From Bdellovibrionales bacterium (lineage in GTDB: Bacteria > Bdellovibrionota > Bdellovibrionia > Bdellovibrionales > JAGQZY01): a stretch of 37,052 bases of DNA. The position numbers and the translations under genes are program-made. Shown piece by piece: positions 19,235 through 31,471 of the stretch (position 1 is the first letter of the stretch; the number at the start of each line of letters is the position of its first letter). The notes under the pieces are model-generated. The model saw only the letters and a list, made by a program, of their open reading frames with translations, did no database searches and was not told the origin of the DNA. The DNA is taken from positions 1 through 37,052 of the forward strand of contig JAGQZY010000020.1 of the NCBI GenBank assembly GCA_020435205.1. The letters run 5' to 3'.

Positions 19235-19273
19235 ATATTTTGCTTATCCTACCCACGCAGGGGGTGCAAGACA

Positions 19274-29739: not shown

Positions 29740-31044
29740 TTATTTTACAGATGGCCTGAAATGACCATCAGATCCTTTTTTTATCGTCCAATTTTTAGCG
29801 AGCTCAATAGTCCATCCATCACCTTTAACTAAAGTATCACCAATTTCTTGGGGCTCGCTCAGGATGATTTTGGTATTTGGAGTATTTTTGATCCGAACTC
29901 CATCTTCGACTTTCAGAGTTCCCCATTTATCTGTGGTTTGGTAGAAGGTGTAGATAAAATCACCTTCAGAAATAGCGAGAATCCCATTGGGGTCAAACAT
30001 CCCTGGTGACCCTGGAGTTGGCTTGATGAGAACTGAATTTGGTGAATCTATTTTCTTGAGATAGGTAGAAATTTTCTGCTTAATTTCATCTGCTCTTCTT
30101 CTCTCAAATTCATTGATATGTGTGAAATCATATTCAGCATATCCTTGAGTAGGTAACTTGATTTTAGGAACTTTTTGAATTTTGTAAGCCTTAGCCAATA
30201 GCTCACCAAAGCCTTTCGAGTTTTTCAAACCACTTTTCCAATTATATTCGGTCTTATCAAGTAGAAGTCCATACAGGGGGCCAGTGTAATAAGAGGCTGA
30301 CCGAGCGAGGCTGGTTAATTTTGGTACTTTTGAAAGTAGGTTTTTCAGATAGATGTTTTTATCGTCACCATTTTGTAAGCGAACGACTGTCCCAGTGTAA
30401 GCGGCTAGTCCTTCATTAAAATCGAGAACGTGTTCTTTTTCTTGAGCACCTTTGAATTTCTGAAATCTGAGTTTGCGAAATGCGAGTGCATTTTGAAGAT
30501 GTAGGGTTCGTGCCTTGGGTTCTGTGAGGGCCTGAAGTAATGCTTGCCATTCAAGGCGTATCAAAAGTCTCCCGTCGTATTGATCAAGGTGTTCTATGAA
30601 TAAGCTATTCGCAGGAAGCCCGAGATCGTTCTGAATTGAATGAAACGCCTCATGGTTCATCAATTCTATTCGATCCAGTTTGGATTCTGGTAAAGGCCAT
30701 AGAACCATCGACCACGTTTGGTCTTCCCATTCAATGGAAGTGTTGGCGTAAACCTTTGGACCATAATAACGGCCTGAAAAATACGAACCTTCTGGGGTGA
30801 ATTTCCCCTTTGGGTCGGGTTTTGTGGCAATAGACTCCATAGTATCCTTATTCAGAATTATCATCGGAACGCAAAGAGTGTGTTTCCAAGTTTTTTTACC
30901 TTCGCCAGAACAACTTTGTTCAAAGTCAGTAAGTGCGGTTGATCCGGATTCAACAAAAGAATCTTTTGATGTCTGCAGCTTATTCGTGCTGCAGTTAGTT
31001 GTAAAAAATAAAAATAGAAGAAGAGAGATCAATCGAAATAGCAT
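29740..31044 (-). CDS. Lipoprotein with gluzincin metallopeptidase motif
   Basis: Lipobox TTNC (Cys18), 434 residues. MNHEAFHSIQND contains HExxH (131-135), the zinc-binding helix. It is followed 76 residues later by FNEGLAAYTG, whose Glu211 fits the third ligand of a gluzincin (peptidase MA-like). Between them is EHLDQYDGRLLIRLEWQALL, a helical insert typical of family relatives. A C-terminal beta-like domain starts near 340 (SEGDFIYTFYQTTDKWG). Predicted as an envelope-anchored zinc metallopeptidase of unknown substrate. The ribosome site AAGGTGG is part of a perfect hairpin (31048-31076). Confidence 0.7.
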   Translation of the reverse strand: MLFRLISLLLFLFFTTNCSTNKLQTSKDSFVESGSTALTDFEQSCSGEGKKTWKHTLCVPMIILNKDTMESIATKPDPKGKFTPEGSYFSGRYYGPKVYANTSIEWEDQTWSMVLWPLPESKLDRIELMNHEAFHSIQNDLGLPANSLFIEHLDQYDGRLLIRLEWQALLQALTEPKARTLHLQNALAFRKLRFQKFKGAQEKEHVLDFNEGLAAYTGTVVRLQNGDDKNIYLKNLLSKVPKLTSLARSASYYTGPLYGLLLDKTEYNWKSGLKNSKGFGELLAKAYKIQKVPKIKLPTQGYAEYDFTHINEFERRRADEIKQKISTYLKKIDSPNSVLIKPTPGSPGMFDPNGILAISEGDFIYTFYQTTDKWGTLKVEDGVRIKNTPNTKIILSEPQEIGDTLVKGDGWTIELAKNWTIKKGSDGHFRPSVK

Positions 31045-31047
31045 TTC

Positions 31048-31076
31048 GCCACCTTATTAAAAATTCGTAAGGTGGC
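31048..31076 (-). promoter_or_regulatory. Hairpin that sequesters the ribosome site of the gluzincin gene
   Basis: On the minus strand GCCACCTTA (31076-31068), an 11-nt A/T-rich loop, and TAAGGTGGC (31056-31048) form a perfect 9-bp stem. The second arm contains AAGGTGG, the only ribosome site of the gene, ending 3-4 nt before ATG 31044. It sits between ssrA and the gene, 37 nt after the tmRNA 3' end. It could be translational control, an RNA thermometer or transcript-end processing. Confidence 0.5.
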
Positions 31077-31112
31077 ACATTAACATAGAATTGGATCGAA
31101 CCAAATCGAAAG

Positions 31113-31471
31113 TGGTGGAGGCGCCGGGAGTTGAACCCGGGTCCGCAAATTATTCACATTAAGGCCAGCTACATGTTTAGTCGTTGTTTGTTAAAACCAT
31201 GAACTTCCAACGACAAACTTTCATGGTCGTTGTTCCGAAGGATTTGAATCATCAAGCTCGGTACCACACTTAATGATCGAGATGGCTTAGGTGACACCTA
31301 CCTCCTCGACCCATCAACGAAGAGTTCAGCGAGCAATCGAACTACTTATTAGGCAGCCATTGCTGGAGCGAAAGTTTCGCCAATTAAATAATGCACGTTT
31401 TTAACGAGGTCCTCATGCGCCCCGACATGCTCCTTAAGCTTCAAAATCCACGTCGAAGCCATTACGCCCCC
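31113..31471 (-). ncRNA. ssrA: tmRNA (ssrA)
   Basis: About 359 nt on the minus strand. The 5' end starts GGGGGCGTAATGGCTTCGAC at 31471, the classic tmRNA opening. The 3' end carries the T-arm (CCCGGGTTCAACTCCCGG) and CGCCTCC-A-CCA, with CCA encoded at 31115-31113. The acceptor stem pairs GGGGGCG with CGCCTCC (one G-U). The tag frame is open through 31396-31352 and reads VHYLIGETFAPAMAA, then TAA TAA (31351-31346); the first residue is uncertain. It ends AMAA, akin to the usual LAA protease signal. A TATACT -10 lies about 40 nt upstream, so a short pre-tmRNA leader with a CCCTC-CGT-GAGGG hairpin is likely. Confidence 0.93.

Follow-up and report, generated by a model that had tools for sequence, protein, structure and literature searches.

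Does a perfect hairpin that encloses the ribosome site of the gene behind ssrA regulate that gene, belong to the end of the ssrA transcript, or lie there by coincidence? The question is raised by a 37,052-nt stretch of DNA from a Bdellovibrionales bacterium, hereafter the window. It is argued here, with moderate confidence, that the structure is a lineage-specific, static and probably incidental stem-loop in the 68-nt gap between the CCA of ssrA and the ATG of an accessory gene for a putative, metallopeptidase-like lipoprotein; on the most likely reading no switching trigger is indicated and a conserved regulatory element is unlikely. The features concerned are:

31113..31471, minus strand: ssrA (tmRNA), called by ARAGORN and Rfam; upstream of the hairpin on the same strand
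31057..31086, minus strand: nine-codon open frame MLMCHLTNF, its TAA in the loop with a second TAA adjacent
31048..31076, minus strand: perfect hairpin, GCCACCTTA-N11-TAAGGTGGC, nine perfect pairs
31076-31068, minus strand: 5' arm, GCCACCTTA
31067-31057, minus strand: loop, CGAATTTTTAA, 11 nt
31056-31048, minus strand: 3' arm, TAAGGTGGC
31049..31055, minus strand: AAGGTGG, putative Shine-Dalgarno sequence (SD), entirely within the 3' arm
29740..31044, minus strand: open frame of a putative HExxH lipoprotein, 434 aa, ATG at 31044, with an HEAFH motif

Read on the minus strand downstream of the ssrA CCA, the gap continues as ...TTAATGT GCCACCTTA CGAATTTTTAA TAAGGTGGC GAA ATG, and the hairpin starts 36 nt past the CCA. 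The stem contains five G-C pairs and zero mismatches, and in folding an outer U-G pair can extend it to ten pairs. AAGGTGG is followed by exactly 4 nt (CGAA) and then the ATG; the AGGTG within it is a five-base match to the generic anti-SD complement, with an aligned spacing of 7. The sequence bears out the initial annotation in its coordinates, its nine perfect pairs and 11-nt loop, its placement of the whole AAGGTGG inside the 3' arm before the start codon (the spacer being 4 nt), and its position of the hairpin between ssrA and the lipoprotein gene, with ssrA found by two methods.

The tmRNA carries the tag GETFAPAMAA, ending in MAA; most of the listed tags of the order end in LAA, and that of the genus mate appears, from a reading of L042 by eye, to end in IAA. 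One paper describes tmRNA as highly abundant in Bdellovibrio bacteriovorus (PMC3627812). An integration site at ssrA was considered and rejected, as the last 24 nt of the gene recur nowhere else in the window, even with up to five mismatches allowed. The lipoprotein gene is regarded as real because homologues in genomes G003 (42% identity; 41% in a three-way alignment) and G061 (37%) align across almost its entire length and agree on its start. Its TTNC is a lipobox-like sequence, and HEAFH is of the HExxH type. A Pfam search with the 434-aa protein gave no match, a PDB search returned a single match to a transporter (E 0.087) that was disregarded, phage records gave no match, and a scan of genome contigs with the protein yielded no further homologue. 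Searches of the order, class and phylum place the full-length protein in 3 of 368 phylum genomes, including the window's own, in two families of the order (weak partial matches in G083 and G301 were left out of the comparisons); the gene is sporadic and was possibly transferred.

In folding, the lipoprotein ribosome site has an opening energy of 16.1 kcal/mol, compared with a mean of 6.6 (sd 3.0) over 328 gene starts sampled in the genome; it ranks second among them, with the hairpin centred exactly on the SD. The genome background covers 361.5 kb, counting the window, out of 2.83 Mb, and the starts come from a simple gene caller of our own (open frames of at least 100 codons, start picked by SD and codon), so that some of the 328 will be wrong. 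The only other start at or above 16.1 kcal/mol is overlain by an intrinsic terminator in L077. At about 19245-19265 of that contig the terminator, which has a T-tract, appears to lie right on the start called for a 201-codon frame, and this start call may be wrong. The SD of the lipoprotein gene is paired in the predicted ensemble, as in RBS-sequestering hairpins, and the 113-nt leader folds better than its shuffled versions (z -2.4; 5 of 200 as good). Predicted folding and opening energy thus back the initial claim of a ribosome site hidden by the hairpin, and such a stem should hinder translation, probably lowering it.

The repeat by itself is ordinary: the window has four perfect inverted repeats of at least nine pairs with loops of 3-20 nt, and 12 dinucleotide shuffles average 3.8. 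Those that also hold at least five G-C pairs occur twice against about 0.4 in the shuffles, and in 361.5 kb of the genome 17 times against 8.75 (8 shuffles); judged by the listed flanks, many of the 17 are terminators with a short loop and a T-tract. The subclass to which this hairpin belongs (at least nine pairs, at least five G-C, loop of at least 9 nt, no T-tract on either side) numbers 2 against 4.25 in 16 shuffles of the same 361.5 kb, and these long-loop, T-tract-free hairpins are not in excess. Chance alone should give 0.5 starts as occluded as this one per 328 genes, the mean of 40 rounds in which shuffling was confined to the upstream part of each leader. A bare nine-pair inverted repeat is therefore not beyond chance, and as a cover for a ribosome site the stem is rare per gene, but by extrapolation to a few thousand genes at this rate, several such starts per genome would be unremarkable. 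The figures bear on the static reading from both sides: the opening energy of 16.1 against a mean of 6.6 kcal/mol and the chance expectation of 0.5 in 328 count for it, yet a place among the two most occluded of 328 starts, the centring on the SD, a nine-pair stem with five G-C pairs that is uncommon in any one window, and the leader's z-score all speak against it.

The comparison with relatives favors the static reading. The exact inverted repeat is present once in its own genome and in 0 of 58 relatives (59 genomes in total), and no other copy of the leader was found in the genome. The same-genus genome G001 has an ssrA that is 86% identical and lacks the lipoprotein gene; the region past its ssrA is unrelated to that of the window, and the best hairpin there is weak, at -4.2 kcal/mol. 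Past ssrA in the same-genus genome (L042 2623-5318) come a small frame and, as the first large one, an 831-aa frame that from its translation resembles a restriction-type helicase. The flank of ssrA varies within the genus. At two further homologues of the lipoprotein gene the opening energies are 2.7 and 4.3 kcal/mol, no stem of more than five pairs covers the ribosome site, and no tmRNA gene lies within the stretches fetched. The stem is absent from every relative examined; recent selection on it may have occurred, the homologues compared being two and neither conspecific. The hairpin is most likely ordinary and static because the relatives examined do not share it and chance produces stems this strong at gene starts.

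A possible but rather unlikely alternative is that the hairpin belongs to ssrA, as a 3' structure at which the transcript stops or which marks its end, or one that blocks exonucleases and guides trimming; its overlap with the next ribosome site would then follow only from the shortness of the gap. Such a role is conceivable because the order has an excess of hairpins past ssrA: of the 50 ssrA loci, 47 extend far enough downstream, the present one included (G005, G028 and G057 were dropped as their contigs ended too soon), and a hairpin of -10 kcal/mol or lower starts within 70 nt of ssrA in 42 of the 47, against a mean of 26 (largest 31) in 12 rounds of shuffling; at -15 kcal/mol the count is 30 of 47 against 9 (largest 12). 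This is a real tendency of the order, of which the present hairpin, the strongest downstream of ssrA at its own locus, may be a weak instance without a T-tract, and in this genome a terminator, the one in L077, covers another called start. However, a T-tract follows the hairpin at 15 of the 47 loci (5.2 in the shuffles, largest 8), while here the stem runs into GAAATGCT, with T at 2 of 8 positions and 3 of 8 at best; a terminator scan does not list it, 2 of 12 shuffles of the sequence downstream of this ssrA fall to about -12 kcal/mol or below (-14.5 and -12.0), and the ssrA of the same-genus genome has no strong hairpin. A canonical intrinsic terminator was rejected on the missing T-tract and the scan. 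One study scores hairpins as possible terminators whether or not they have a poly-U stretch (PMC8355165). No paper listed in the literature searched deals with a hairpin between ssrA and the gene behind it. Of the suggestion that the stem is an end structure for ssrA read-through transcripts, the part that stands is the order-wide excess over shuffles; the missing T-tract and the weak same-genus hairpin count against it.

It is improbable that the stem is a regulated switch, opened by a small RNA or an RNA-binding protein, or else by ribosomes at work on the nine-codon frame, so that the lipoprotein is translated. The predicted burial of the entire SD would suit such a switch, as would the upstream frame, which crosses the 5' arm, terminates in the loop and shares the reading frame of the lipoprotein gene; but the stem is not conserved, the frame has no SD and is probably incidental, and comparable frames precede 32 of the 328 starts, 10 of them in frame. 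Rfam matches no family besides tmRNA at gathering score anywhere in the window, a described thermometer family included. The stem also appears too stable for temperature sensing: the predicted mean unpaired fraction of the SD is 0.0004 (0.04%) at 20 °C and 0.0023 (0.23%) at 37 °C; it rises to 0.0035 at 42 °C and to 1.4% at 60 °C, hence staying under 2% throughout. An RNA thermometer is unlikely because the SD is predicted to stay nearly fully paired up to 60 °C, and it was excluded on that predicted stability. The proposal of translational control, by temperature or otherwise, thus finds no backing, with no examined relative carrying the stem and no repeat or operator family seen to which it belongs.

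A DNA operator, or a piece of a dispersed repeat, is a very improbable reading of the inverted repeat. The 9-11-9 palindrome could bind a dimeric protein, but its exact form is single-copy in the genome, the leader has no second copy, and its relaxed form occurs at 14 places in the 59 genomes (tallied from the forward columns) against 17 for a reversed control pattern; a repeat or operator family was ruled out on that count. Hardly credible is a single transcription unit of ssrA and the lipoprotein gene in which the hairpin would make tmRNA maturation and lipoprotein translation mutually exclusive; ribosomes translating the in-frame nine-codon leader would open it, and lipoprotein synthesis would then report tmRNA processing or initiation stress.

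In the favored static reading, the stem would form and pair the SD in any transcript of the region, whether started at a promoter of its own or extended from ssrA by read-through, and translation would be low by default; the arrangement most likely arose by chance as the gene came to adjoin ssrA. A real switch would mean that, in a lineage of Bdellovibrionota, a secreted metallopeptidase-like lipoprotein has its translation linked to a stable housekeeping RNA gene, a link that the evidence does not show. The useful outcome is a negative one: striking stems placed exactly over a ribosome site are expected by chance, on extrapolation, several times per genome, so that any one of them calls for conservation or expression data before it is taken as regulation.

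Among known systems, the hairpin resembles the RNA thermometers of the ROSE and fourU types in having a paired SD upstream of the start, but differs in its perfect stem with five G-C pairs and no mismatches, predicted to remain closed to 60 °C. With intrinsic (Rho-independent) terminators downstream of ssrA it shares the strand and a position 36 nt past the CCA, but it has an 11-nt loop and no T-tract. From static RBS-sequestering hairpins of 5' UTRs, a known class, it differs in being known from sequence alone, with neither trigger nor conservation; it matches them in that a stable local stem takes up the SD in its 3' arm, and its kind is thus already known.
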